The notes under the pieces are model-generated. The model was not told the origin of the DNA. It ran no database searches and worked only from the letters and a program-made list of their open reading frames with translations. A program made the translations under genes and the position numbers. Shown here in pieces: positions 21,010 through 64,000 of a stretch of 64,000 nt of DNA. The stretch's first letter is position 1. Each line of letters opens with the position of its first letter. The stretch is from Liolophura sinensis. Lineage: Eukaryota; Mollusca; Polyplacophora; Chitonida; Chitonidae. The stretch lies in contig NC_088306.1 of the NCBI RefSeq assembly GCF_032854445.1, positions 21,299,764 through 21,363,763 of the forward strand. Reading direction: 5' to 3'.

Positions 21010-21161
21010 TTATAGTCCAAAATACGAAAGTATCGAAAACAACACACATGTTTTATTCTCCGGAAACCTACCATTCAGTTTCTCCGCCTCAATGTCGGCA
21101 CGTATATCCTCCCTGATCAGCTTGAGAAGTTCTTGGGACACTCTGCCATCATCAATGTTAC
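21010..21161 (-). CDS. Gene A exon 6: C-terminal STING helix, 3' end uncertain
   Basis: The acceptor TATATTTAG opens a frame with VSQELLKLIREDIRADIEAE, the counterpart of DISRQLVELIKEDIEED in gene B. A good donor G|GTAGGT at 21071 would end a 90-nt exon in phase 1. Without splicing the frame runs 17 further residues to TAA at 21010-21012. I cannot decide between the two. Confidence 0.75.
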
Positions 21162-24100
21162 CTAAATATAAACAGGATCAAAGTCACATGAATTTTTTCC
21201 CATTTATTCATCTCTTTATTAGATTGTTACTTCATAAGGCATTTATTTATTTATTTATTTATTTATTCCATACCCATGGCCTTTTCAGTTATACCATAAC
21301 TGTCTGGTTTATTGATGGGGGAAAATAGGGGGACAAATCACTGTCATTATACAGAATGGGTACGCTTTACGCTTACCGTCAGTATCATTATGCAGAATGG
21401 GTACGCTTTACACTTACCATCAGTATCATTATACAGAATGGGCACGCTTTACACTTACCATCAGTGTCATTATACAGAATGGGTACGCTTTACACTTACC
21501 ATCAGTATCATTATACAGAATGGGTACGCTTTACACTTACCGTCAGTATCATTATACAGAATGGGTACGCTTTACACTTACCATCAGTATCATTATACAG
21601 AATGGGTACGCTTTACACTTACCATCAGTATCATTATACAGAATGGGCACGCTTTACACTTACCATCAGTGTCATTATACAGAATGGGTACGCTTTACAC
21701 TTACCATCAGTGTCATTATACAGAATGGGTACACTTTACACTTACCATCAGTGTCATTATACAGAATGAGTACGCTTTACACTTACCATCAGTATCATTA
21801 TACAGAATGGGTACGCTTTACATTTACCATCAGTGTCATTATACAGAATGGGTACGCTTTACACTTACCATCAGTATCATTATACAGAATGGGTACGCTT
21901 TACACTTACCATCAGTATCATTATACAGAATGGGCACGCTTTACACTTACCATCAGTGTCATTATACAGAATGGGTACGCTTTACACTTACCATCAGTGT
22001 CATTATACAGAATGGATACGCTTTACACCTACCATCAGTGTCATTATACAGAGTGGGTACGCTTTACACTTACCATCAGTGTCATTAAACAGAATGAGTC
22101 TGTACTTGTTTGAGTGGTAATACCCAAGTATATCTTCCAGGGTACATTTAAAGCGGTACAGCTGACGTTTCTTTTCGTCAGCGCTCATCCGGGCGATTCC
22201 GCCTACCTCCATGTCGTTCATAGGTTGAACCACCGAACAAAACTCGCCAAGAAAGTAAAACGTCTGAAAACAATAAAGGAATTAAATTTCTAACTGACTT
22301 ACGTACAGTATTTGGAGTATCCGCCTCGACGTGGAGAGGCCCCGGGATCAAACCCCGGTCGAGACTTTAAAAATGGTACTTGTTGCTTCCTCGCTTGCGC
22401 TCAGCACTGAGAGGGGAGAGCAAGGAAACAGGACTGATTGGCCCGTCAGTATAATGTGACTGCGCGAGGTGTCATGTCTAGTGTCTTCGGCATGATACTT
22501 CAGTGCAATGCAGAAGCACTTTGGCTGAATGGACTCGCTCTGCCACAAGAAGACACAGAACATGTACACACACCTTATGACTGAAAAATTGTTAATTTAT
22601 AGTTCGAAATCAGACTTTCTTATACCATCTGTTAACCAAAAAGGACGTTCCAGGTCAATAATCGCAAGGCCAAATACCAACGAGTTTAAAAATTGTACTT
22701 GTTGTTGCCATGCTTGGCGCTCAGCACTAAGAGCTTAGAGCAAGGAAACAGGACTGGTTGCCTCGGTGTCTGTATAATGTGACTGAGTGTCTCCTGCACG
22801 ATACTTCAGTGATTTGCTCTACCTAATAACTCCTCGTCGTCACATGACTGAACAATTGTTAAGTACAATGTTAAACCTGAAACGTTCATTTATCATTCTA
22901 CACTATTTGGTCCACAGAAGAAGCCATTCCTCTATAAATTATCGTGTTAGTTGTTCTCACATAAGAAATGAAAACTGGTCATGTTTTTGTGATGTGTTTG
23001 TTGATGGACTAATTCTGGCCTATGCAGTAAGTCACAGTTACCGCCTGAGGTTGAGGTCTTCAAGCTAGATAATCATCCAATCCAGACCGCCTTTTATCAC
23101 AGAGGTCGCGAAGCGACCTACCTGACAAAAGACGGCCAAGACTGGGTGATCATCTAGCTTGGACACCGAAACCAAAGTCGGTAACTGACCTACACAATGG
23201 TTCCATTGTTTTGCAAGAATCATTCGTTTCATGAAATCGCCGTTTTAGTGACTAAATTCGGACGAATTTTTCTAATTATTAAAATTCATCTTAATTACTG
23301 TGACGCACATGTATAGGTTGGAAAATTATATAATTCAGTAATGTATTAGCTATATTGATGTGGTCTTATATGAAGCCCTTAAGATGTTATCCATTACACA
23401 TGGTGCAGTGACAAACTGCATAGGTTTACCATGTACGTTTACTTCGTATTATCGTTTATGTTCGCATTAACCAATTTAGTAATTTTTTTAAGGTATACAA
23501 GAAGCTACCAAACTCACGTTAGCCTGAAAAGAATGCAGCAAATTTCTATGTTTTGATAGCCTTCAAACACTTTTTACCAGCAGAGCTTGACCTGGACTCA
23601 AGGAAAATGATATTTCTCAACACGGCAATTTCTAAAAAAAATCTAAATTCTAAAAATTCTAAAGAAAATCCCCAGCAATGTACTATGTACCACTTTAAAT
23701 AAATAAATAATAATCAATAAATAAATAGTGTTTTAAATAAATAAATTTGTGCAGATACATGGAAGAACTCATTCAGAAGCTTTAATATTTTCTGATTTAT
23801 GCAAATAATAAATTTCCTTGAAAAAAAAAATCCAGTGGCATGTAATAATTAATCGGCTTTTCTGAAATTGGAAACATATTTGTCTTTAGTTGTTTTAAAT
23901 AGTTGGGACACAGGGCGTTATGTTCGACGAGGTTGTGTTGTTGTTGAAAAGTATCAATACCGAGAAAACATAATACGATGATATGATGATGGCCTCACCC
24001 CGGCTTCCACAAAACGGTGTAACGGAACCTGCTTTCCAGTGCTTATACTAGCAATAGCAAACAAGAAATACCTAACAGCTCAGATAGTAGAGAGCTCAAA

Positions 24101-27100
24101 TCCCGATGAGTGAAGCAGCGAAATTAGTAAGCATCCCTTGACCACCTGTGATCCGCGAGCAAACTGGTGGGTACGTAGGACGAATGACCCGCGGCAAACA
24201 ATGGAGGCATCGTGTAATATGGAGTTACCGATACTCGTAGCTGTAATGAGGCTGGTTTTCGGTTATGTTAAATAATAATTTATCGAAGGGGTTCTTTGTA
24301 TCGACTGTTATTTGTAGAATAAAGCTGCATTATTCCTAGCCGCGCCTAGAACATTCTTTGCGTCTTTCCTGAAACCTGTTGATTGCATCTGTTTCCGTAA
24401 TTACGTACCAATCTCTTTACTTGTAGTTTCTTAGTTCTTTAATGGTTTTTTGTTTTGTTTTGAATGAACTTTTGTTTTGGAAACTTGTCCTGGGATTACT
24501 GACCCGGATCGTCTATTATGACGGTGTCACGATACGTATAGGCATACGAATATTTGTTTCAACGCCTAAATCCTCTAATCAAAAACACCGTCGTGCAAGT
24601 GAATAATTCTTGCGAGCGACACCAAACTCAAATCAGATAAACAAACAAATACATTGACAGCGTACATACACGCCGAATTTGACTTTCAATTCATTCCAAA
24701 AAAATAAATTTAACAGAATGTTGTACTCTAGAGTGTATTCTCTTATTGTAGCAGATGATACCGTTAAATATGACACATATATTCTATGAATTCAAAAAGA
24801 TTCTATTACATTAAAAGGATATTATGTCAAATTTGACAAAATATATATAATATGTTATAATAACAGAATACATCACTAAGACAAAATTAACTTAAGAGAT
24901 TAGTTTTGAAGTATTTAAAGACTCGTACCTTGTCATCTTGTATTTTGTAAACAGAGTTCTTATATGTACGTTCCTTGCCAGCTCTCCACCTTATCACGGG
25001 TTCTAGTGGCGTGTCAGCCACGATTCTCTTGTCCCAATCCGTCAGTTTCCCAGGACATATACAGCTTTCCGGTAATAGGAGGTACATCCTTCGTGGTATA
25101 CACCGGCGTTTAGGGTCGGATTGCCAGTGGGGACACTTTTGAATCCGTTCATTAAGAACTTGAAAGAAGCGAACAAAAACTATCATGATGCACATAGAAT
25201 GTTTGATCATGGTTACTATCACGAAGGTCCATGAACAGTCAATGTTGGTGATTCCATACATTTCCTGTCCCAGGTTTGAACCCGCGATTGAGAAACAAGC
25301 ATATTAACCAGCCGGCCATGGCCTGCTCCATATGTTTCTGTTTTAATGCCATTGTACCATTGAGTGAGTGCGTACTTAGGGTCAAACGTCGTAACAAAAT
25401 TTCAGTCATATGACGACGAAAGAGTCCTTAAAATGAAGGTAATGTGCCTCCTAGTTGCAGGACTGATATTCTGCCGCTCTTATATCTAGTGCTGCTTCAC
25501 TGAGACGACTTACCGAAGGCAAGTAAGCCACCCCACCCAAGCCATCATACTCATACGGGTCAGTCAGTCGTTGTACAATCCCTTAGTGCTGAAGTCCAAC
25601 CAAGGAAGCTACAGCTTTCTCTTTTAAGGTCTTAGGTGTGACCCAGGATTGACCTTGGATCTACCCCCCCCCCCTCCTCCTCCCCTCCTCCCTCGAAGCC
25701 CACGCTCTCCGAACTGAGCCATCGGGGCCGGTTTCATTGTATCATTGAGACTCTTATGCTGCCTCAATTAAGCATTACACCGAATACACCCTACTGACAT
25801 TCACCTTACTTTCACAAAACTTTGTAAATAAATTTTGCGTAACTTTTCTCGTAAATGACCTCGCCTTAATATAACCTAGACAACGTCTTTCACGAAAACA
25901 GTTTTCTTAAAGTGACCCTCGTTCCGAAAGAAATATACGCAGGTAAGCTTATACACACGTGGTGTTCTGTAGTGTTCCGAAAGAAATATACGCAGGTAAG
26001 CTTATACACACGTGGTGTTCTGTGGTGTTCCGAAAGAAATATACGCAGGTATGCTTATACACACGTGGTGTTCTGTGGTGTCCTGTGATGTCCACTTACT
26101 TGGTAAAAGGATTTTGAGGAAGCTGTAGTAGTACGACCACGCGAAGCCATGACCCACATTACCCACGGGAAGTAAGGACTCTACAGACACATCCGGACCT
26201 GCACAAACGAATTTACGAGACACTGAAGAAAGACACTTCAAACAAAGTCAAGCGGATGTCAGGAAATTATTGGAGACGAGATACGTTAATTTTAGTAAGA
26301 CATAAGAAATATGTAACCTAACAAAATTTTACATTAATATTAATATCCGACATGATACCGTATTTCTATCAACGAGAGTTAACATTATTAGCAGCTATAC
26401 CTACAAGGATCTACCATTAGGATGTGTTTAGCAGCCCCACCTACGGCTGTAGTGTAGCCAAAAACAGACAAGAGTTAAAAACGACAACGAATATAATTAA
26501 CGTGTACAATATAGAGAGACAAACCACAGCAGCGACGACAGCTGACAGATGGCATGTATGGTCACGCGTAATTGGTGAAATTTGTCCCCTTGCCAATTTA
26601 CCGCAGTTATGGTTTTATTCTAACTGTTCATGTAAATGCATAAATAGTTGAAAATTACACGCTCCTAGCATCATGGTTTTAGCAGAATTATTTAAAAAAG
26701 ATGCAGTGATGTCAATTGCAATTTATTAGACGTCACTGGTGTGGAATTACTTAAAATGCTGAGTTGTCATCATATTTAACATCCAATAACATAAAAACAA
26801 TGAGAAGACCTCTTTTTTTGCATCATTGACAGAATGTACGAGCTTCAGAAAAGGTATGGAGTTATACTGGTGGCGTAATAAATAAACCGCCAAAACCAAC
26901 CAATTATCATGTTCATGACATCGTCCAGGAAGCCGTCCACCTTCCCATCAATGCACTCGAGCTGTCTCAGCACATCGGGAAGCTCCTTTGTCTCCACATC
27001 CAAGAGCACTGGGACAATAGCCAGTCTGTCGTTGTCAATGGAGCGTTCCAGTGTCAAGGAGAGCTCCAGTGTGCACCAGTAGCTCTTCAGGGATTGTCTT

Positions 27101-28148
27101 GAGATCAAGGAAAGGATTTTCTCGGATGTCTCAATGAAAGTGATAATCTGGTCGAAAATCTGAACGCCCCCCATGAAGTCCTGTGAAGCCATCCCGCACT
27201 GAAAGCCTTTAGCCTGAAGTTTCCGATACAGATTCTTGGCAAACTCGTTGTCCGCTTCGCAGTGAGTGATGAAAACATGGCGCTCAAAACCTTCCTTTAG
27301 TTTACGTCCTTCATGGGGCTCGTCCGTTACAAAACTTCCACTAAAAAGAACAAGTCCAACACTGTGAGCTACACAGGCTATAGGTAAAAAGAAATCTTAA
27401 TGGGCAAAAATAAATCCAAGCAGTTAATAATACAATCTGCATAAAATAAAGTATTCAGCTCGGCGGGGCGGGGGTGGGGGGGGGGGGGGGGTGTTGTGAA
27501 ACATGAAACTGGAATAAGATGCATTATTTCTCCGCGAAAAGGCTGTAGTTAATACCGGCAAAATAGCATTAAACTGTATTCACACATGCTGAATTAAACA
27601 ATGATAGAGGATTTGGTTTTGACTCGTGTTTTATGCCGTACTCAAGATTATTTCACTCATACGACGACGGCTAGCATTATGGTGGGAGGAAACCGAGAGA
27701 AACCCAGGATTATCCGCAGGTTACTGACAGACCTTCCCTGTAATGCGCCACTGTTTCTGTACTGCTGTACTCATAAACCAAAGCGGAAGTCTACCATACA
27801 TGCATCACCACAGCGTACGTATGCTTTTAAGCAGAGCTGGAGTCTACATTGTCTTTTTGTGGCAGTTAGAGTCCATGTCGCCAAAGTGCTGCAGCCACTG
27901 AAGTACCATGCCGAAGACACCAGGCATAACACCCCACTTAGACACATTATACTGACACCGGACCAACCAGTCCTGTTTCCTTGCTCTAAGCTCTCAGTGC
28001 TGAGCACCAAGTCTTTTTCATTTTTCATACAGCTTGAAAAAAACGGCTTGTTTCCCTACCTGGTTGCCATGGCGACCTCTTATCCCGCGTGACATGTGAC
28101 ACCCGACGTGCCTTGTTCTCTACCTTTATCTCAACGTTCCTAACGGTT
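21010..28148 (-). CDS. Gene A: TIR-STING fusion protein (WCxxE TIR)
   Basis: Coding exons 28070-28060, 27340-26901, 26198-26100, 25158-24929, 22263-22074 and 21161-21010. Phases agree throughout; reading exon 6 to TAA at 21010-21012 gives 373 residues. Residues 20-150 form a TIR domain: HVFITHCEAD (box 1), ASQDFMGG (BB loop), KILSLIS strand, SYWCTLEL with E96 at the position of the catalytic glutamate of SARM1, plant and bacterial TIR NADases, then IVPVLLDV. Residues 151-340 are STING: NVGHGFAWSYYYSFLKILLP, MYLLLPES, RAGKERTYKNSVYKI, FKCTLEDIL. There are no membrane helices. Expected role: cytosolic sensor whose STING part binds a cyclic dinucleotide and clusters the TIR part, by analogy with bacterial TIR-STING and oyster TIR-STING. 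The exact ligand and whether NAD+ is cleaved are inference. Gene C, divergently placed 30 kb away, is its close paralogue. Confidence 0.9.
21345..22110. repeat. 41-bp array made of copies of the gene A exon 5 splice donor
   Basis: 18 units plus the parental site. On the minus strand each unit is 23 nt of exon 5 end (CATTCTGTATAATGACACTG + ATG) joined to 18 nt of intron start (GTAAGTGTAAAGCGTACC). The authentic exon ends with the same bases at 22074, so the array begins at the gene's own donor and fills most of intron 5. Almost every copy keeps an intact ATG|GTAAGTG donor; two copies have GTAGGTG or GTAAATG. Confidence 0.95.
22074..22263 (-). CDS. Gene A exon 5: STING ligand-pocket segment
   Basis: Acceptor TTGTTTTCAG, 190 nt, donor GATG|GTAAGTG (phase 1). 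Residues 261-323: TFYFLGEFCSVVQPM, where E267 matches human E260 while T263 and P264 are replaced by S270 and V271; then YRFKCTLEDILGYY and YRLILFNDTD. Its last 23 nt and the donor were amplified into the adjacent 41-bp array. Confidence 0.92.
22315..22575 (+). mobile_element. SINE family 2 copy in gene A intron 4
   Basis: Head remnant CCGCCTCGACGTGGAGAGGC with B box GGGATCAAACCCCGGTC, then AAAATGGTACTTGTTGC, GCAAGGAAACAGGACTGATT and TCTTCGGCATGATACTTCAG. It is antisense to the gene. Confidence 0.85.
22660..22830 (+). mobile_element. SINE family 2 partial copy in gene A intron 4
   Basis: Starts inside the body (TTTAAAAATTGTACTTGTTG), keeps AGCAAGGAAACAGGACTGGT and CACGATACTTCAGTG; the head is absent. 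Confidence 0.8.
23035..23187. repeat. Long imperfect hairpin (foldback element) in gene A intron 4
   Basis: The left arm CAGTTACCGCCTGAGGTTGA...CAAGCTAGAT and the right arm ATCTAGCTTGGACACCGAAA...GGTAACTG pair over about 65 nt with mismatches. The arms enclose a perfect inner palindrome AGGTCGCGAAGCGACCT. This is either a small MITE or an intronic hairpin. Confidence 0.8.
23190..24714. other. Gene A intron 4, middle part
   Basis: AT-rich intron sequence; I see no exon or recognised repeat. Confidence 0.55.
24715..24865 (+). repeat. Dispersed AT-rich family Z copy
   Basis: Shares GTGTATTCTCTTATTGTAGC-like, CCGTTAAATATGACACATAT and ATATTATGTCAAATTTGACA blocks, in order, with 34385-34575. A related inverted copy is at 33235-33425. 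Class unknown, possibly a MITE. Confidence 0.55.
24929..25158 (-). CDS. Gene A exon 4: STING core
   Basis: Acceptor CTTCTTTCAAG, donor GACAAG|GTACGAG, 230 nt. Residues 184-260 include RRMYLLLPESC (strand of YILLPLDCG) and RAGKERTYKNSVYKIQDD. R242, R247, Y249 and N251 fall on R232, R238, Y240 and N242 of human STING, so the cyclic-dinucleotide lid arginines are kept. Confidence 0.92.
25262..25735 (-). mobile_element. SINE family 3 plus a tRNA-like fragment in gene A intron 3
   Basis: From about 25345 the element reads (minus strand) from a tRNA-like head GGCCCCGATGGCTCAGTTCG near 25730 to the tail with GACGTTTGACCCTAAG; a C-rich run interrupts it near 25665. A separate tRNA-like piece with B box GGGTTCAAACCTGG lies at 25262-25325. 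Confidence 0.65.
25925..26086. repeat. 53-bp tandem triplication beside gene A exon 3 donor
   Basis: Three nearly identical units of GTTCCGAAAGAAATATACGC plus AGGTAAGCTTATACACACGT plus GGTGTTCTGTGGT. On the gene's strand the array starts about 14 nt after the exon 3 donor (26099). Confidence 0.93.
26100..26198 (-). CDS. Gene A exon 3: STING alpha-1 helix
   Basis: Acceptor TTCGTTTGTGCAG, donor CCAA|GTAAGTG, 99 nt, phase 1 at both ends. Encodes PDVSVESLLPVGNVGHGFAW and continues SYYYSFLKILLP; S172 and Y173 match S162/Y163, while G166 and Y167 become S176 and F177. The exon is the same length and almost the same sequence as gene C exon 3. Confidence 0.93.
26510..26750 (+). repeat. Dispersed family X copy in gene A intron 2
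   Basis: Good copy: GACAGCTGACAGATGGCATG, TTACCGCAGTTATGGTTTTA, CTAACTGTTCATGTAAATGC, GCATCATGGTTTTAGCAGAA and ATGCAGTGATGTCAATTGCA in order. Confidence 0.75.
26901..27340 (-). CDS. Gene A exon 2: TIR domain
   Basis: Acceptor TTGTTCTTTTTAG, 440 nt, donor ATTG|GTTGGT (weak at +3/+4). Residues 4-150 hold the complete TIR domain with HVFITHCEAD, SQDFMGG, SYWCTLEL (E96) and IVPVLLDV. Retention of the following intron would add about 16 residues and stop, giving a TIR-only protein. Confidence 0.93.
27465..27493. repeat. G-rich tract in gene A intron 1
   Basis: GGCGGGGCGGGGGTGGGGGG followed by more G: a long poly-G run that could form a G-quadruplex and is prone to sequencing-length error. Confidence 0.7.
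27620..27745 (-). mobile_element. SINE family 1 fragment in gene A intron 1
   Basis: Minus-strand body from TCTGTCAGTAACCTGCGGAT to the GTACGGCATAAAACACG tail. It is in the sense direction of gene A. Confidence 0.8.
27785..28020 (-). mobile_element. SINE family 2 copy in gene A intron 1
   Basis: Minus-strand AGCACTGAGAGCTTAGAGCA, AGGAAACAGGACTGGTTGGT and GTCTTCGGCATGGTACTTCA. The tail lies toward 27785; the head is missing. Confidence 0.82.
28060..28148 (-). CDS. Gene A exon 1: 5' UTR end and 11-nt start of coding
   Basis: Acceptor TTTTCTCTATCTTCAG, 78 nt of leader, then GTCGCCATGG (strong start context) and ATGGCAACCAG|GTAGGG. Coding part 28070-28060 gives MAT plus two bases of Ser4. The layout is the same as gene C exon 1. 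An acceptor at its upstream end implies at least one further non-coding exon. Confidence 0.78.
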
Positions 28149-37043: not shown

Positions 37044-38309
37044 CAGTCAATGGACATAAGTATTTCACCACTTCAAACATGACGTCTCGCTGCATGAAAT
37101 TTTTATCGGTAACTTCAGTTTCAGTTTATCGGTAACTTCAGTCTCTGTATTTAGTCAGATTGCCTTTCATGTGTATCACTTCCTGAATTCGACCTGTGAT
37201 ACTTGAAAATGAATTTCTGACGTACTCAAGAGGTATGTTTTGCCACAGCCGGTAGATTTCATCGAACAGCTGGTCTCCATTGACGATGTGTGTACCCACT
37301 GCTTGAAGGTCTCGTTTAGTCTAAGCCAAAAATTTTCGATGATATTTGGATCGAGGATCGCTCATTGTGCTGGCCTTTCAGTAGTTTTCAATTTCATTTT
37401 CTTCCATAAATTCACGGCTACGCGAGCTCTGTGTGCAGGTGCGTTATCATCCATGAAAACGTAATCATTATTAGGAAAATGGCGGGCTATAACAGACCAT
37501 AAATTATTATCAATCATATCAATATATTCCTGACCATTTATGGTACCATCTACCGCCACTGATCTTCCAACACCATTATAACAGACACAGCCCCATACCA
37601 TCAAAGCTATTTTCCTCTGAGATGGAGGGCAGACAAGATGGGACTGTTGACTCCCAGTATAATTTCTCCATACATACACGCGATTATCCGTCCCTATCAC
37701 AACTTGACTCTGATCAGAAAATATCATAATTTTTCCGCTCTCGATCATTCGTCCACTTCCTCTTTTCTTTACTCCATTTACACGCTTTTGCTTGTTCAGC
37801 CCGCGAACCGTCATTTTCTTGTGTACCCGCTTCCTGTAATTTTCTTGACAGTTTTCTGACAAAATTGACGAGCCTTCCCCTCATTTAACTTGTTGGTCAC
37901 GTATGTCAACTTAATCTTCTGCTACATTTCACAAGCCGAATAAAAGATGCGTGATCGCTTACTGTGAACATTTTTCCCTTCCGCTTCGAGGCTTTTTTTT
38001 TTTTCAACGTTACCCTCTGCTCGGAAATTTACATGAAATTGTAGTCCTTGGAAACCCACCACACGCGCCAGCTCTGACTTACATGGAGTATGAGATGAGG
38101 TTTTACGATCATTTCTTTCTCACCCATACTGTGCTGTTTGCCTTTCCGACCCAGCTTGTCAAACAAAGTTACAAACAAACCGTAAGAGCAGACGACGATA
38201 TGACGGCGATATGTCTGTAAATAGAGCTGCGCATAAACACGTCCATTTCGCAAATTAAGCGCAATGCCACAACGTTATGGTAATGACGAATGCTTAGGTC
38301 CACTGACTG
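37044..38309 (-). mobile_element. Tc1/mariner-type DNA transposon, degenerate
   Basis: Left end TACAGTCAATGGACATAAGT (with a TA dinucleotide outside) and right end CTTAGGTCCACTGACTG are imperfect inverted repeats about 1.27 kb apart. Between them, on the minus strand, lies a broken DDE transposase. Confidence 0.8.
37180..37862 (-). pseudogene. Tc1-like transposase, inactivated
   Basis: The minus-strand frame from 37862 has MIFSDQSQVVIG (first Asp), VWGCVCYNGVGR and YVFMDDNAPAHRA (second Asp). An in-frame TGA (37362-37364) replaces the residue after WPAQ-type RPAQ. The same frame then continues with DPNIIENFWLRL, which holds the third acidic residue. The N-terminal DNA-binding part is missing or out of frame. 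It is therefore a non-autonomous remnant. Confidence 0.85.
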
Positions 38310-41580: not shown

Positions 41581-42557
41581 AAAACAATGCCAAGGGACCA
41601 GGTTGCGGGAGTTCATAGTTGTACCAGTAGAGTACCGTCTGAGCGTTTGTCCATAAGAACATACTTACTATTTGTGTCAGATGTATTCAAAACAATGCCA
41701 AGGGACCAGGTTGCGGGAGTTCATAGTTGTACCAGTAGAGTACCGTCTGAGCGTTTGTCCATAAGAACATACTTACTATTTGTGTCAGATGTATTCAAAA
41801 CAATGCCAAGGGACCAGGTTGCGGGAGTTCCTAGTTGTACCAGTAGAAAACCGTCTGAGCGTTTGTCCATAAGAACATACTTACTATTTGTGTCAGACGT
41901 ATTCAAAACAATGCCAAGGGACCAGGTTGCGGGAGTTCATAGTTGTACCAGTAGAACACCGTCTGAGCGTTTGTCCATAAGAACATACTTACTATTTGTG
42001 TCAGATGTATTCAAAACAATGCCAAGGGACCAGGTTGCGGGAGTTCCTAGTTGTACCAGTAGAAAACCGTCTGGGCGTTTGTCCATAAGAACATACTTAC
42101 TATTTGTGTCAGATGTATTCAAAACAATGCCAAGGGACCAGGTTGCGGGAGTTCCTAGTTGTACCAGTAGAATACCGTCTGAGCGTTCGTCCATAAGAGC
42201 ATACTTACTATTTGTGTCAGATGTATTCAAAACAATGCCAAGGGACCAGGTTGCAGGAGTTCCTGGTTGTACCAGTAGAAAACCGTCTGGGCGTTTGTCC
42301 ATAAGAACATACTTACTATTTGTGTCAGATGTATTCAAAAAAATGCCAAGGGACCAGGTTGCAGGAGTTCCTAGTTGTACCAGTAGAATACCGTATGAGC
42401 GTTTGTCCATAAGAACATACTTAGTATTTGTGTCAGATGTATTCAAAACAATGCCAAGGGACCAGGTTGCAGGAGTTCCTAGTTGTACCAGTAGAGTACC
42501 GTCTGAGCGTTTGCCCATAAGAACATACTTAGTATTTGTGTCAGATGTATTCAAAAC
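41581..42557. repeat. 108-bp satellite, nine copies, open on both strands
   Basis: Nine units of exactly 108 bp (36 codons), so the plus strand (41548-42606, 352 codons) and the minus strand (205 codons) both remain open. The units are over 90 percent alike by eye. The minus strand of most units carries a consensus-like donor (AATA|GTAAGTATG) after an AG-preceded stretch. I do not think either frame is a gene: it lacks a domain and composition outside the array changes at once. Confidence 0.93.
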
Positions 42558-53300: not shown

Positions 53301-56130
53301 CCAATTACAGAGTAAATTCAGTCGGAACATCATACATCTGCTAGTTACTGTGTAAATTCAGTCAGCATATTATCCATCTGCTGGTTACTGAGTAAATTCA
53401 GTCAGCATATCGTACATCTCCTGGTTATTGTGTAAGTTCAGTCAGCATACAATACATCAGCTGTTTATTGTGTAAATTCAGTCAGCATATCCTACATCTG
53501 CTAGTTACTGTGTAAATTCAGTCAGCATATCGTACATCTCCTGGTTATTGTGTAAGTTCAGTCAGCATACCATACATCAGCTGGTTATTGTGTAAATTCA
53601 GCCAGCATATCATACATCTGTTCTTTATTGTGTAAGTTCGGTCAGCATATCGCACATTCTGCTAGTTATTGTGTAAATTCAGTCAGCATATTCAACACCT
53701 GCTGGTTATTGTGTAAATTCAGTCAGCATATCGTACATCTGCTAATTACTGTGTAAATTTAGTCATCATATCATACATCTGCTAGTTACAGAGCAAATTC
53801 AGTCAGCACATCATACATCTGCTAATTACTGTGTAAATTTAGTCAGCATATCAAACATTTGCAGGTTATTGTGTAAATTCAGTCAGCATATCGTACATCT
53901 GTTATTTACTGTGTAAATTCAGCCGGCATATCGTACATCTGCTAGTTACTGTGTAAATTCAGCCGGCATATCGTACATCTTCTAGTTACTGTGTAAATTC
54001 CGTCAGCATATCGTACATCTGCTGGTTATTGTGTAAATTTAGTCAGCATATCATACATCTGATAGTTACTGTGTAAATTGAGCCCGCATATCGAACATCT
54101 GCTGGTTACTGTGTAATTTAGTCAGCATATCATACATCTGGTGGTTACTGTGTAAATTCAGTTAGCATATCGTACATCTGGTAGTTACTGTGTAAATTCA
54201 GTCAGTATATCATACATCTGCTGGTTATTGTGTAAATTTAGTCAGCATATCATACATCTGCTAGTTACTGTGTAAATTCAGCCGGTATAGCGTACATCTG
54301 CTAGTTACTGAGTAAATTCAGCCGGCATATGGTACATCTGCTAGTTACTGTGTAAATTCAGTCAGCATATCGTACATCTGCTGGTTATTGTGTAAATTTA
54401 GTCAGCATATCGTACATCTGCTAATTACTGTGTAAATTCAGCCGGCATATCGTACATCTGCTGGTTACTGTGTAAATTCAGCCGGCATATCGTACATCTG
54501 CTGGTTATTGTGTAAATTTAGTCAGCATATTATACATCTGCTAGTTGCTGTGTAAATTCAGCCGGCATATCATACATCTGCTAGTTACTGTGTAAATTCA
54601 GCCGGCATATCGTACATCTGCTGGTTACTGTGTAAATTCAGCCGGCATATCGTACATCTGCTGGTTATTGTGTAAATTTAGTCAGCATATTATACATCTG
54701 CTAGTTGCTGTGTAAATTCAGCCGGCATATCGTACATCTGGTAGTTACTGTGTAAATTCAGTCAGCATATCGTACATCTGCTAGTTACTGTGTAAATTCA
54801 GCCGGCATATCGTACATCTGCCAGTTACTGTGTAAATTCAGCCGGCATATCGTACATCTGCTAGTTATTGTGTAAATGCAGTCAGTATATCATACATCTG
54901 CTGGTTATTGTGTGAGTTCAGTCAGCATATAATACATCTCCTAGTTACTGGGTAAATTTAGTCAGCATATCATATTTTTGCTGGTTATTGTGTAAATTTA
55001 GTCCGCATATCGTGCATCTGGTAGTTACTGAGTAAATTTAGTCAGAATATCATACATCTCCTAATTACTGTGTAAGTTTAGTCAGCATATCATGCATTTG
55101 CAGGTTATTGTGTAAGTTCTGTCAACATATCATACATCTGGTAGTTACTGAGTAAATTTAATCAGCATATCGTACATCTGGTGGTTACTGTGTAAGTTCA
55201 GTTAGCATATCGTACATCTGCTAGTTACTGTGTAAATTCAGTCAGCATATCGTACATCTGCTGGTTATTGTGTAAGTTCAGACAGCATATCGTTCATCTG
55301 CTAGTTACTGTGTAAATTCAGTCAGCATATCGTACATCTGGTAGTTACTGTGTAAATTCAGTCAGTATATCATACATCTGCTGGTTATTGTGTAAGTTCA
55401 GTCATCAGATCGTACATCTGGTAGTTACTGTGTAAATTCAGTCAGTATATCATACATGTGCTGGTTATTGTGTAAATTCAGTCAGCATATCATACATCTG
55501 CTAGTTACTGTGTAAATTCAGTCAGTATATCATACATCTGCTGGTTATTGTGTATGTTCAGTAAGCATATTGTACACCTGCTGATCATTGTGTAAGTTCA
55601 ATCAGCATATTGTACTTCTGCTGGTTACTGTGTAAATTCAATTAGCATATCGTACATCTGGTAGCTACTGTGTAAATTCAGTCAGTATATCATACATCTG
55701 TTGGTTATTGTGTAAGTTCAGTCAGCATATCGTACATCTGATAGTTACTGTGTAAATTCAGTCAGTATATCATACACCTGCTGGTTATTGTGTAAGTTCA
55801 GTCAGCATATCGTACATCTGGTAGATAGTGTGTAAATTCAGTCAGTATATCATACATCTGTTGGTTATTGTGTAAATTCAGTCAGCATATCGTACATCTG
55901 GTAGTTACTGTGTAAATTCAGTCAGCACATCATACATCTTCTGGTTATTGTGTAAATTCAGTCAGCATATGGTACATCTGGTAGTTACTGTGTAAATTCA
56001 GTCAGCATATCGTACATCTGGTAGTTACTGTGTAAATTCAGTCAGCACATCATACATCTTCTGGTTATTGTGTAAATTCAGTCAGCATATCGTACATTTC
56101 CTACGTATTGTTTTAATTCAGTCAGCATGT
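53300..56130. repeat. 40-bp satellite array, about 70 copies
   Basis: Unit CTAGTTACTGTGTAAATTCA plus GCCGGCATATCGTACATCTG with recurring variants (CTGGTTATTG; TTTAGTCAGCATATCATAC). Variants alternate in parts, making 80- and 120-bp higher-order blocks; 54420-54600 and 54600-54740 are almost identical blocks. There are no unique spacers, so it is not a CRISPR-like array. Confidence 0.97.
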
Positions 56131-58583: not shown

Positions 58584-58680
58584 GGTTATGATTTCGGCGA
58601 TGGACTTTTACACGTGCCGAGCACAGAACTGGATCACGTGTCTCTTCTGATGTTGGACACGAGATCGTCATGGCAACAGG
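58584..58680 (+). CDS. Gene C exon 1: leader end and 11-nt start of coding
   Basis: Acceptor TTTTCTTTCCCTCAG, 86 nt leader, then ATCGTCATGGCAACAGG|GTAAGG. Coding bases 58670-58680 give MAT plus two bases of Gly4. The ATG has G at -3 and +4. The arrangement is the same as gene A exon 1. Confidence 0.78.
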
Positions 58681-61600
58681 GTAAGGAAAAGAAATAATCA
58701 ATTAGCTTTTCTTAAAAAAGAAAGATTTGAAAAAAGGATGGACCAAGTTCACCTAAACTGGAAATGTTTTCCAATTTAGGTGAATTTAGATAAAGATCAC
58801 TACAACAACTGCCACAACATCAACGTATTTTGTAACAAACCTATACTCTGAAGGAACACAAGACATTCTGTCCTGTCTCAAACAGAGGAGTATATCCGTG
58901 CCTTTCGGTCACAACGATATACCACAACTTTACTGGCTTCCAAAAATGTATAAATCCCCTTATAAGGCTCGCTTTATTGATCAAAAAGCTGCACCACCAG
59001 ATTGTATCCACTCTCTTAACGAAGGCACTAAGAGAAGTAGTCATTTTGGAAAAAAAGTATTGCAATTGCAAAGATTTCGAGCTTCAACTGTATCCGTATT
59101 CTTAAAACCCCCAAAGTCTCACTGAAGAACTAGGCGCTCAAATACACCTACTGTATAAGGACATCTCCACTTGTTATTTCTCTACTTTCTATACTACCGT
59201 ACCTCACGAAGATTTAATTGTTAACACTTCATCACTGATTGTATCGGTGTTTAATAAAACTGATTACTGCTGAATTAACGTCAGCGTTAAGGCAACAAAG
59301 CCTTCTTCAGTTCCACTACATACCAGATAGATACCATTGTTTCACTGTTCATCGAGTTGCTTGAATATGTCATTAGCGATGTCTGACACTGTATGGGTAG
59401 GTATTCGGGTGGGTACAAATTGTTTCAGCCTTTTTGAGGACATATAGATGTTCTCATATGAATGCGACTATATGCTATAATTATTAAAGAGTATTCCTCA
59501 CCATGCACTCTCGAGGGGCCTCCCACCAGTGTCGGCTCATGTTGGCTTCCTTTCCGACCGCACAAATGAAGGTCTAGCAGCAACCTGCGGATGGTCGTGG
59601 GTTTCCCCTGGTCTCTTCCCAGTTTCCTTCCACCATGGTGCTGGCCACTGTCGTATAAGTGAAATATTCTTGAGTACGGCGTAAAACACCAATCAAATAA
59701 AAAAATAATCACTAGGCCCGACGGTTGTCATTCACTATACCTTATATTGATGATCATTTTTTAAAAAAATCCATATATAGCAAAGCCTGTGAAGGATATT
59801 TTTGGTTGACGGCTGGTATATGAATGTTAGTTTCGACGCATAGATTCCATGTATACTTTGCGCATGCGCTAATATGTCGATCTCATGGCTTCCTGACCTT
59901 GGCAGGGTTAACATTGCAATTGAAAATATTTCTGTTTGATCATGTTTTAGATATTGAGCACAAATTTTTCGTAAAATAATGTCCTGTACTAAAAATGCAT
60001 CTTGCTGCCAACATTATCGGTTGAATTTTTATCGGCTGAAGTTCTGTATTCTTTTTAAGGTTTAACATATTTTGCCAAAAAAAGGTCAAATCATTTAAGT
60101 AAACTTTGCACCGTGTTACAGTGAAAATGTAGAGACGGATCAGTCATGGGACGTGCCAGAGCTAGAAGAGGGGTTTATCAACCATGTTTTCATCACCCAC
60201 TGTGAGGCTGACTATGAGTATGCCAAGAATCTGTGGCACAAGCTCTCAGAAAAAGGTTTCAAGTGCAGCATGGCGAAAAAGGATTTCCTCGGCGGCCATT
60301 CCATATATAATCAGATCATCAGAGCCATTGAGACATCAAAAAAAATCCTTCCCGTAATCTCCCCAGAAGCATTGAAGAGCTACTGGTGTACACTGGAACT
60401 CTCCCTGACGCTGGAACGCTCCATGGACAACGACAGTTTAGCCATTGTCCCAGTACTCTTGGACGTTCCGACAGAGAAGCTTCCCGATGTGTTGAGACAG
60501 TTGGAGTGTATAGATGGCAGGGCAGCTGGTTTCCTAGACGATGTTACGAAAATGATTATTGGTTAGCATTGCATTTAGATGGAATCTCAAACTAGCCCAT
60601 TGTTTTATAGTAAAAATAGCCATGTCTCAGTGCGGGGAAGTGAAGTAAGAGCTGAAATTATATCTGCCCATACCGGATAACTTTAGATGACCAGTCTATT
60701 GTGAGAGGATTTGTTGGGGTGGGGTATAAGTTTAACTTCAGTACATAGGGTGGTTTAGGGGCTGAGTAGTTCAGATTGTATATATCTGACATGTTAGATA
60801 TTCACAAGTTTTTCACAAGTTTAGCTCATTTGGTCGGAAAATAAGCATTTAAATTAAAATTTACCTTGTGAGTACAATTGGCTTTGAGTAGTCAGCCAGA
60901 GGTTCGTAACTGGAGGATACTGCATGGCCCGGACTAAACCTTTGGCAAGTAAATGAGGAACACACAACGTTTCATCCTCAGAGGACAGTCAAGTTTAGGC
61001 ATGAGATAGATTAAACACATTCCCAGCATAGCTTCTTCATTAACCGTTACATTCACTTACCTCGATCTCAGCTCTGTCGCATTCGCTGTCCGCCAAGCAT
61101 CAACGCTTTACGCCACAAAAACAAGTGTCCCGTGATCTTAAATAATTCTGAATTCATATCTCCTCATTATGCGGGAATAATAAAAACCATAACGCATAGG
61201 TGATATGAGGATAAAATTAATGCAGAGTTAGAGAGCACGTTTAGTAGCGTAAATGTTTGACATATTGGGGATATCACACTGGAAAAGACAGAGTTCCGGA
61301 TTTGTGAATGGACGATTACTGGACCCGGGGTCACGAAGCGATCTTAGCCTTGAGCCAAAATTTCAGATTAATTTAAAACTTTTATTTCTTTCTTATCAAC
61401 GTCAAAATATTGCCTGAGGACGTAATTCTCTGCAAGTTATGGCAAAACAAATTTCAGCTAAAAAAAAAGATTAATGATCGAAATTTGGACTTACGTTAAA
61501 GATCGCTTGGTGACTGCTGTGTGAGATCTGTATTTCTGAAAGCTTATTGGGAAGTTATGAAACGGATCTCAGATCTAGCTCAAGTTGTATACCATTTTGA

Positions 61601-63783
61601 TGGAAGGCACGTGACTACTAAAACGTTCATGTGAGCACCTAAGCGGATGGCTTAGTCACCAAGACTCCCGTCTAAAATCCACACAAGGACTGAACCAACA
61701 CACAATGTCTTGTGTTCATTCTCGTATGACGTTAAAGAGGCCATACCGGAAAGTTTTGGGGCAAAAATCCATATTTGCTGATCACATCAACTTTTCTCTA
61801 TTTACCAAAAACAGCACAAGTTGTTGCCTTTGGGTAAATATGAAGCTCGTACTATTTATGGCGTAGACAATGATTTTAAGGTGATAATGCGATTCACTTT
61901 GTAAATTTTATGAACTTCATCGCCTATTTTGAAATCTCGGATATAAACTGCATAAAATCTAAAACTTTAAATTAACTTATTTAATATTTTGAAATCAAAT
62001 TTGCCCGCAGTCCTGTCAACATTTTACAAAGACCCTTGTTAAGCAGTATCCATCAATTTCGTTTGCGCAGGTCCGGATGTGTCCGTAGAATCCTTACTTC
62101 CCGTGGGAAATGTGGGGCATGGTTTGGCGTGGTCTTACTACAGTGGCTACCTCAAAATCCTTTTTCCAAGTAAGTGGAGCTTAGTGTACACCAAATGATA
62201 ACGTGAAACCACATCAAACATGAACAATGCAGCGCATCTCGGTGCAATCGGACCACATGATGTTTTTAAGGAATTCTCATGTAATCTTTCTTTGCAGGCG
62301 ACGAGCGGAAAGTTCGATGACGTTAGTATGAAATAATTATGCTTGAGACAGATATTTAGCTTACAAAAACAGTTGAGAGATAAGGTGGGCAAATCTTTTT
62401 TCTCAGTGCTGACATTCTGACAGTGCTGCCTTACTGTAACGCCATGTTGAAGACAGTCACTGGATATGCTGACACCGAATTCCCCTGCTTTTGTATGGTC
62501 TATCCTGCATTTCTATGGCCTGTCGCAAAGCAAAGAAGCGTCAAAATTGCCGACTTTCAGTCTTGACACGATCTCACACGGATTTCTAACTTCTCGGCCT
62601 CTTTAGAACTGTCTTATGACCTTTAGGATGCAGTTAATTTTCCTGCTTTTTTTTGGCACTTGTAAACATGCTTTAACGTGCAGTCCTGTTGAGCTGTTCC
62701 AAATCTTCAAACCCAAAATATATAAGACTACGACATAGAGAGTAAAACAAGAATAACCACGACATTGTGATAATGGGCAAATGGTCGCAGGTAACCGGTG
62801 AAATGCGGCCTCGGGTCAGGTTACATTACTCCAACTGTTCATGCAAATACTACAATATAGTAGCAATCTACACGCCCGCTAGCACCCTGTTAACCTGTTG
62901 TTGACACGCCAGTGGTAATAATCTCGACCTTAGAATTTTTATCTTTATTCTAAACAATACAGCGGTCTGAAAGAGCCAGATTGGCAACGGGTGATGCGAA
63001 AAGTTTACCCGGTTCCTTCGTGTCTGCAGCAACCCAAGTTTCAGCTAATACCAACCAGATCACACCTTACAATAAGCCTGTCCTACAAAATGACTCCCTC
63101 CCAAGGGGAGAAAAACGCCAGGCTAACCAAGAATGTTATAATTACCATGTGTGTTCTTATGAGATATATGACAGCCTCCGTGGCCGAGTATAGTTGCGCT
63201 AGCGCAGCACTATGACCCGTGAGTCTCTCACCAATACGGTCGCTGTGAGTCTAAGACCAGCTCATGATGGCTTCTTCTCCTGTCATACTTGTTAAGTTTA
63301 TCCAGCAACCCAGTGGCGGATTTGCCCTGTTTTTGTCCCACCATTATGCTTGCCGCCGTCGTTAAGGTGAAGTATTCTTCAGTACTGCGTAAAACATAAA
63401 CCACCTGAATCAATAAATAGATTAGATGTAGATTGTGTGTTGCAGTACTAGAAAAGGCAACAAAATTGCTTATTTGAGTTGAATTGACAATTGTATAGAA
63501 TGGAAAAGATTCCTGTACATTTCAGTGTTTCATTGCAGTTTTTCTTCCCTTCTTTTTAGAACTTCGTGATCGGATCCAGAAAAGTCCACAATGGCGCTCA
63601 GATCCCACGCGTATGCCACGAAGAATGTACCTCCTTTTACCGGAGAGCTGCAAATGTCCGGCAAAACTGACTGCTTGGGACGAGAAAATCGTGGCTGACA
63701 AGCCGTTAGAAGGTGTAACAAAGATGAGAGCTGGCAAGGAAAGGAATTATTGTAACTCCGTTTACAAAATACAAGATGACAAG
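58584..63783 (+). CDS. Gene C: TIR-STING fusion protein, 3' end outside the window
   Basis: Coding exons 58670-58680, 60122-60561, 62071-62169 and 63560-63783 give 258 residues, ending in phase 0. By comparison with A and B, two further exons (ligand-pocket strand and C-terminal helix) lie beyond base 64000. Residues 20-150 are the TIR domain with HVFITHCEAD, KKDFLGG, SYWCTLEL (E96 in the NADase-type catalytic position) and IVPVLLDV. From residue 151 it is STING: NVGHGLAWSYYSGYLKILFP, RRMYLLLPESC, RAGKERNYCNSVYKIQDD, with R240, R245 and Y247 on human R232, R238 and Y240. This is the family member closest to human STING in helix 1 (G176 and Y177 kept). No membrane segment. It is divergent to gene A and about 74 percent identical in the TIR domain (94 of 127 by eye). 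Role as for gene A: predicted cytosolic cyclic-dinucleotide sensor with a TIR effector or adaptor. Confidence 0.9.
58588..58650 (+). promoter_or_regulatory. Short upstream open reading frame in the gene C leader
   Basis: ATG at 58588, 20 codons, TGA at 58648-58650, in a different frame and ending 19 nt before the TIR-STING ATG. It could lower translation of the main frame if this exon is indeed part of the leader. Confidence 0.4.
58760..59290 (+). pseudogene. Penelope-like reverse transcriptase fragment in gene C intron 1
   Basis: IPQLYWLPKMYKSPYKARFI is the hallmark segment of Penelope-like RTs (LYWLPKLHK-P-KARFI). About 230 bp later, in another frame, DISTCYFSTFYTTVPHEDLI matches their motif A (DFSTLYTTIPH). 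Frameshifts separate the two, and the GIY-YIG part is absent. Confidence 0.8.
59515..59707 (+). mobile_element. SINE family 1, 5' truncated, in gene C intron 1
   Basis: GGCTCATGTTGGCTTCCTTT, GCAACCTGCGGATGGTCGTG and ATAAGTGAAATATTCTTGAG to an AATAAAAAAATAA tail. Confidence 0.9.
60122..60561 (+). CDS. Gene C exon 2: TIR domain
   Basis: Acceptor CACCGTGTTACAG, 440 nt, donor ATTG|GTTAGC. Begins with one base completing Gly4 and ends in phase 1. Same length as gene A exon 2. Intron retention would stop immediately (GGT TAG), giving a 151-residue TIR-only product. Confidence 0.93.
60562..62070. other. Gene C intron 2
   Basis: 1.5 kb; apart from the MITE at 61327-61517 no exon or repeat is evident. 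Confidence 0.6.
61327..61517. mobile_element. Foldback MITE in gene C intron 2
   Basis: GGGGTCACGAAGCGATCTTA at the left pairs with TAAAGATCGCTTGGTGACTG at the right, and pairing continues for about 45 nt per arm (AGCCAAAATTTCAG against CGAAATTTGGAC). Confidence 0.82.
62071..62169 (+). CDS. Gene C exon 3: STING alpha-1 helix
   Basis: Acceptor TTTGCGCAG, 99 nt, donor CCAA|GTAAGTG. Encodes PDVSVESLLPVGNVGHGLAW then SYYSGYLKILFP. Confidence 0.94.
62745..62960 (+). repeat. Dispersed family X copy in gene C intron 3
   Basis: ATGGGCAAATGGTCGCAGGT, ACCGGTGAAATGCGGCCTCG, CAACTGTTCATGCAAATACT and CACGCCCGCTAGCACC. Confidence 0.72.
63172..63415 (+). mobile_element. SINE family 1, full length, in gene C intron 3
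   Basis: Head AGCCTCCGTGGCCGAGTATA and GCTAGCGCAGCACTATGACC, GAGTCTCTCACCAATACGGT, a body with a deletion, and the AATCAATAAATAGATT tail. It lies 145 bp before exon 4. Confidence 0.88.
63560..63783 (+). CDS. Gene C exon 4: STING core
   Basis: Acceptor CTTCTTTTTAG, 224 nt (two codons shorter than in A and B), donor GACAAG|GTGCAA, phase 0. LRDRIQKSPQW, RRMYLLLPESC and RAGKERNYCNSVYKI are the recognisable parts. Confidence 0.93.
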
Positions 63784-64000
63784 GTGCAAATTTTATGAAT
63801 TAAGGTTAATTGTTGGCTTCTGTTCGGTAATGATGTAAAAGTGTGAAGTGTTAAGACCAAGGCTATCAAAGAAATCTGTAACTTTTAAGTGTGAAGACAT
63901 GTACATGTAGTGTTTAATGTGATAAACTGTACAATAAACTTCATAGACGTTTTGTTTAAAATAAGCATTTTATCTTTACGCCAAATAGAAGTTTATTTTC
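63784..64000. other. Start of gene C intron 4, cut by the window edge
   Basis: No exon seen; the remaining STING exons are expected downstream of the window. Confidence 0.7.

Follow-up and report, generated by a model that had tools for sequence, protein, structure and literature searches.

A mirage-type minisatellite on the exon 5 donor of a TIR-STING gene in the mollusc Liolophura sinensis, probably a tolerated repeat

Does a row of duplicated 5' splice sites in an immune gene regulate that gene, or is it a repeat that the gene tolerates? The question is raised by gene A, a predicted TIR-STING gene found in a 64,000-nucleotide stretch of the Liolophura sinensis genome (contig NC_088306.1, positions 21,299,764 to 21,363,763 of the forward strand; hereafter the window), where a minisatellite lies across the boundary of exon 5 and intron 5. 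The array probably reflects the growth of a repeat that the gene tolerates, and not a switch of immune function.

The exon model of gene A was built from homology to paralogue B, a neighboring TIR-STING copy, from the STING profile, and from the reading frame. All six exons lie on the minus strand. Exon 1, with the start codon (28060-28070), was placed by its frame with exon 2 and by the equivalent layout in paralogue B, and exon 2 (26901-27340) carries the TIR domain (PF13676). By homology, the STING ligand-binding domain starts in exon 3 (26100-26198), continues through exon 4 (24929-25158) and exon 5 (22074-22263, the 3' end of which is inside the array), and ends in exon 6 (21072-21161), next to which a donor-like GTAGGT is found at 21071. 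Joined, the six exons (28070-21072) keep a single frame that predicts a TIR plus STING protein of 353 residues. Residues 26-137 of the joined exons match PF13676 (E=5e-19) and residues 164-341 match PF15009 (E=1e-32), both over the cut-off, and the top PDB match is 6wt6, "Metazoan TIR-STING fusion" (E=2e-51, residues 21-327). A TIR domain followed by a STING ligand-binding domain is thus predicted in a single reading frame, the same N-terminal to C-terminal order as in Metazoan TIR-STING (PDB 6wt6/6wt7), and no unusual feature was seen when the predicted protein was compared with the latter. Gene A, as predicted, is a molluscan TIR-STING gene of the ordinary kind.

The array itself was returned by TRF at 21337-22096 with a 41-bp period (18.5 copies, 95% matches, 0 indels, score 1345). 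The true donor of exon 5, located by homology and by the frame of exons 5 and 6, has its last exon base at 22074 and its first intron base at 22073. A register check was made on the minus strand at 20 positions, taken at 41-bp steps from this donor. GT was present in 18/18 full units, that is, in the true donor and in 17 decoys with first intron bases from 22032 to 21376, the last copy. Position 21335 belongs to a half unit that retains the exonic portion but reads TGTCCC, without GT; position 21294 is outside the array, and the GT found there is due to chance. A sequence-only reading of this DNA had described a 41-bp array on the 5' splice site of a TIR-STING gene, with each head-to-tail unit made of 23 nt of exon 5 and 18 nt of intron. 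Both the array and its unit were confirmed, and the counts were corrected from 18 duplicated donors to 17 decoys and from about 19 equivalent donors to 18 in all. Nearly every copy had been said to keep ATG/GTAAGTG (the slash marks the splice site), and this motif is indeed exact in 14/18 units, the variants being GTAGGTG (copy 1), GTAAATG (copy 6), ACG/GTAAGTG (copy 13), and ACG/GTAAGCG (copy 17). The true donor scored 9.8 with a 9-mer matrix, and the identical 9-mer is found in 13/17 decoys, in agreement with the description of many equivalent donors. Counted by eye, copy 1 has 3 differences from the consensus and copy 17 has 4, the other 16 units have at most 2 each, and the total over the array is 23; with the edge copies excluded, the inner copies are homogenized. 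When a two-unit query was run against the 609-Mb assembly with a search tool that skips very common words, 9 matches were obtained, all of them within the gene A array.

A head-to-tail minisatellite that has an exon-intron boundary in its unit and widely keeps the splice signals is of the mirage type. In PMC3087553, amphioxus mirages are described in Adh3 and in the globins BflGb6 and BflGb9 (with Canestro 2002 NAR as cited there), and Adh3 data together with RT-PCR suggest that regular splicing is undisturbed. The amphioxus arrays resemble the present ones in having tandem units of ~10-160 bp with an exon/intron boundary, many with AG/GT, in being homogenized inside and diverged at the edges, and in occurring in several unrelated genes. 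They differ in host and genes (Adh3 and globins there; immune, chaperonin, and myosin genes of a mollusc here), in the number of units (6 and 3 in two amphioxus BflGb6 haplotypes; 18 in gene A and 10 in paralogue B), and in that they are found at both boundaries, whereas the acceptors sampled here were free of arrays except for a borderline one. In PMC2812944, the internal tandem repeats of human segmental-duplication genes are also minisatellites at exon-intron boundaries, in young paralogues; those repeats can lead to alternative splicing and create new introns, neither of which was shown for the mollusc arrays. PMC6905558 describes an abalone gene that has a minisatellite in an intron. No mollusc mirage was found in a literature search that mostly could not reach subscription papers, which is weak evidence of absence. 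The sequence-only reading was aware of no comparable array in an immune gene; in these sources, however, mirage-type arrays are known from amphioxus and a related class from human paralogues, and they are shown here in a mollusc.

Arrays with a period of at least 10 and at least 2.5 copies cover 16.5% of the window. A 40-bp array of ~70 copies occupies 53305-56128. Another array, of 9 copies of 108 bp (41581-42557), has a 36-codon unit. On the plus strand its reading frame runs open across every copy, and the minus strand is also open over long stretches; no stretch of the array passed in the Pfam comparison, and the matches look like chance. A DDE-type transposase fragment was noted on the minus strand at 37362-37880 (PF13358, E=6e-4, below the cut-off).

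If decoy 1 of gene A were used, the frame would shift into exon 6, as the sequence-only reading had stated, and the predicted product would end after 351 residues. The in-frame stop that it had placed at about 22003 for later decoys was also recovered: decoys 2-17 are all predicted to give a product of 346 residues that ends in ...VGVKRIHSV at a shared stop (22003-22005, minus strand; stop-to-stop frame 22003-22281), which is reached by any decoy past the first. This stop would lie upstream of the exon 5/6 junction by 14 nt with decoy 2, by 55 nt with decoy 3, and by 96-629 nt with decoys 4-17. Under the 50-55 nt rule, a stop located farther upstream of a junction leads to mRNA decay. Since most decoys place the stop more than 55 nt before the junction, mRNA decay would be favored over truncated STING. 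Contrary to the proposal that most decoys yield truncated STING, decay is predicted to be the likelier outcome for copies 4-17.

The four TIR-STING units form an inverted pair: A and C' lie at 28070-10862 on the minus strand of the window, and B and C from 58670 to 64000 on the plus strand, continuing into the adjoining loci L020/L021. Exons 1-4 of paralogue B lie at 58670-63783 on the plus strand, and its exon 5, with 83% amino acid identity to that of gene A, is beyond the window together with its own donor-spanning array (L020, 219-1067). This array is on the same donor as in gene A, but it is made of 10 units of 80 bp, with GT in 9/10. A single ancestral array for A and B was ruled out, as the units are 41 and 80 bp and the exon breakpoints differ. 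In neighbor C it is the exon 4 donor that carries an array, of 4 units of 63 bp with GT in 4/4; no array was found at the exon 4 donor of the counterpart C'. Some further observations were made on these copies. B and C may together encode a double TIR-STING protein, since exon 6 of B continues in frame through a short linking exon (L020, ~2601-2643) into the TIR exon of C and there is no new ATG. The TIR exon of C' (16295-15807, minus strand), 55% identical to that of C by tblastn, has its frame broken and contains stops at places where the exon of C reads through; the STING exons of C' match those of C without stops. Genome-wide, at least 103 TIR-domain matches were counted, which points to a large TIR gene set. 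The mollusc hemocyanin profile had 8 matches in a single stretch of 11 kb, a sign of a molluscan genome; a GFP profile, looked for as a mark of amphioxus, had 0, and its controls gave none either.

The same structure was found in genes of other kinds. The chaperonin family served as the housekeeping control, with 30 of 50 matched loci. A CCT-epsilon exon carries a 109-bp array across its donor with GT in 7/8 units, and a CCT-gamma exon carries a 66/88-bp donor-spanning array with GT in 11/12 units (the anchor used to pick units was outside the donor in both cases); the GT losses of these two arrays are the last edge units. A second CCT-gamma exon, assigned by its position and sequence within the same gene, has a diverged ~60-bp array with GT in 5/7 units; the 60-bp row of TRF ends before the true donor, which is spanned by a 107-bp, 2.0-copy row with 77% matches. 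In a muscle myosin exon the donor is spanned by a 31-bp array, in which 6 donors were identified by eye. CCT-epsilon, CCT-gamma, and muscle myosin were identified by PDB searches. CCT and muscle myosin genes are essential in other animals. With arrays on the donors of essential genes, the copies must be bypassed in normal splicing. In most arrays the intron side of the unit measures 15-23 nt, as judged by eye and post hoc, with breakpoints blurred by matching letters. We also observed a 97-nt CCT-gamma exon between two arrays (contig C8; L043, 605-2426): a 41-bp array of 13 copies ends on its acceptor, and a 27-bp array of 43 copies begins ~12 nt past its donor.

How often arrays fall on splice sites was surveyed in 209,281 bp. 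Of these, 103,937 bp belong to the STING block, 75,758 bp to 17 chaperonin blocks, and 29,586 bp to 9 of the 10 myosin loci. The tenth locus, L065, shares sequence with L064, contributed no splice site, and was left out; with it the sample is 212,569 bp and the result is unchanged. The survey comprised 119 sites (56 donors and 63 acceptors) placed by hand and by eye, and splice sites judged unclear on reading were left out. For the CCT genes, 6 of 59 typed motifs were unmatched (5 donors, 1 acceptor), leaving 22 donors and 31 acceptors; for the myosin genes, 5 of 30 were unmatched and 1 was a duplicate, so that 13 donors and 11 acceptors remained. The 9-mers recorded for 3 of the 21 donors in the STING block are off by one base, without consequence for the test of whether an array spans the site. 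One myosin donor (C1:26644556) had been picked because part of its array was already seen, and it was excluded from all rates. Arrays were defined by a period of at least 10 and at least 1.8 copies, a site was counted as inside when at least 5 nt of array lay on each side, and the expectation came from 10,000 random shifts of the arrays.

Arrays cover 12.3% of the surveyed sequence. Donors were found in arrays at 6/56, one of the six (in the second CCT-gamma exon) being spanned by the 107-bp row alone, against 6.65 expected, whereas acceptors were found in arrays at 0/63 against 7.74 expected (P=0.0001); the sample behind these values is small, its STING block was chosen for its array, and sites within one gene are not independent. 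Outside the STING block the counts were 3/35 for donors (3.68 expected) and 0/42 for acceptors (4.80 expected, P=0.0016), and in the STING block alone 3/21 (2.97 expected) and 0/21 (P=0.057). With arrays of at least 2.5 copies, similar values were obtained for donors (5/56, 6.21 expected) and acceptors (0/63, 7.27 expected, P=0.0001). At a borderline CCT-gamma acceptor (C8:53412452), a 41-bp array of 13 copies stops exactly on the first exon base; if this site is counted, with a zero edge margin, acceptors become 1/63 (P=0.0009), or 1/42 outside the STING block (P=0.015). The direct comparison of donors with acceptors by the Fisher test gave p=0.009 over all sets, or 0.05 with the borderline acceptor, and was weak outside the STING block (p=0.09, or 0.32 with the borderline acceptor). 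This asymmetry between donors and acceptors looks new.

Taken together, we favor, with a probability of about 0.72, the reading that the gene A array is a mirage minisatellite that behaves as passive intron sequence, the 5'-most donor being mostly used and normal TIR-STING being made. In the setting of an array-rich mollusc genome, a segment crossing the boundary would have grown head to tail via tandem duplication and unequal exchange. The spliceosome would mostly choose the 5'-most donor, which is the original one, and the 17 copies would leave with intron 5, with gene A giving a normal TIR-STING. Occasional use of a decoy, which we infer to be rare, would produce early-stop transcripts that are mostly degraded. 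The decoys of gene A match the true donor in strength and are undecayed, and this counts against the passive reading. Purging would be expected if the decoys were used and harmful. In the arrays of A, B, C, and CCT-epsilon, no sign of purging was seen when the donor 9-mer was compared with the rest of the unit. The cells off consensus were 5/162 in the donor versus 18/576 in the rest for gene A, which are similar rates; the donor was cleaner in paralogue B (1/90 versus 62/670) and in C (0/36 versus 10/92), and slightly more variable in CCT-epsilon (5/63 versus 19/329), where the unit-picking pattern fixes part of the donor. The value for CCT-gamma (0/99) was not used, since its unit-picking pattern includes the donor and GT is kept by construction. 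Homogenization is enough to explain the cleaner donors of B and C, although it could also be that these copies are used or kept.

The choice of the 5'-most site may apply at both ends of the intron, where the first donor would be the original and the first acceptor would be a copy. If we infer such a rule, duplicated donors would be harmless and duplicated acceptors would insert repeats into the mRNA, and the acceptors would be spared by arrays because the 5'-most acceptor would be a copy. It is on this basis that minisatellites might settle freely on 5' splice sites and be kept off 3' splice sites through the choice of the 5'-most functional site, a generalization that we put forward tentatively and to which we give clearly less than an even chance. 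In vitro work on duplicated donors has often found the intron-proximal copy to be preferred, the opposite of the proposed rule.

Another way to account for the arrays is that 5' splice sites seed minisatellites preferentially, for example through transcription-linked breaks. Genome-wide, three AGGTGAGT words spaced 30-60 bp apart were counted at 1362 places versus 490 for the reversed pattern, a 2.8x excess that compares with 1.3x for the single word (24,391 versus 18,803) and would agree with seeding. The excess is only 1.3x for AGGTAAGT triples (672 versus 509), however, and triples of the acceptor-like TTTTCAGG are enriched as well (336 versus 141); moreover, the places counted overlap within arrays, so that a few long arrays can dominate, and no simple error can be attached to the ratios. 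What these counts do show is a large number of arrays with donor-like words; they are not evidence that donors seed arrays. Since donors lie in arrays at the chance rate (6/56), we regard preferential seeding as unlikely. Among the first 100 plus-strand AGGTGAGT matches listed in the first 3 Mb of C1, 40 are in three tight tandem clusters by eye, near 830 kb, 1310 kb, and 2132 kb.

The sequence-only reading had presented the array as special to an immune gene and had proposed that its copy number tunes STING: decoys would divert transcripts to early-stop products, and the number of copies would set the dose of intact protein. Consistent with this are the predicted loss of the reading frame with any of the 17 intact decoys, the suggestive presence of a separate array on the same donor in paralogue B, and the stop that comes at once past the first donor of B (GGTGAGTAA, by eye). 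The same structure is nevertheless found on CCT-gamma, CCT-epsilon, and muscle myosin, and its presence on unrelated housekeeping and muscle genes makes STING-specific tuning unlikely; on these loci it was rejected as the main reading. There is also no excess in the STING block (3/21 donors in arrays versus 2.97 expected), and the donors surveyed are inside arrays no oftener than with blind placement. We consider tuning of STING output by the array to be improbable. An array inflated by the assembler is less likely still: in its favor, the work is based on a single assembly and one amphioxus mirage was seemingly mis-assembled in a genome draft (PMC3087553), but the internal variants differ between copies, most of all in the edge copies, the flanks are unique, the array sits in a 31-Mb contig, and arrays of other periods lie on donors of other genes, which leaves an artefact very improbable.

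With the gene A array read as a passive mirage, the donor array matters little for STING itself, and the donor/acceptor asymmetry is the one possibly new general point. For gene predictors and for studies of immune genes the arrays are a warning, as donor arrays in such genomes are not to be read as regulation. If the reading is true, they would be natural tests in which the spliceosome is offered as many as 18 near-identical donors, in housekeeping genes included, a question of splice-donor choice otherwise approached via minigenes. If the 5'-most rule were also true, the genome of this mollusc would be a record of many natural splice-choice experiments among identical sites.
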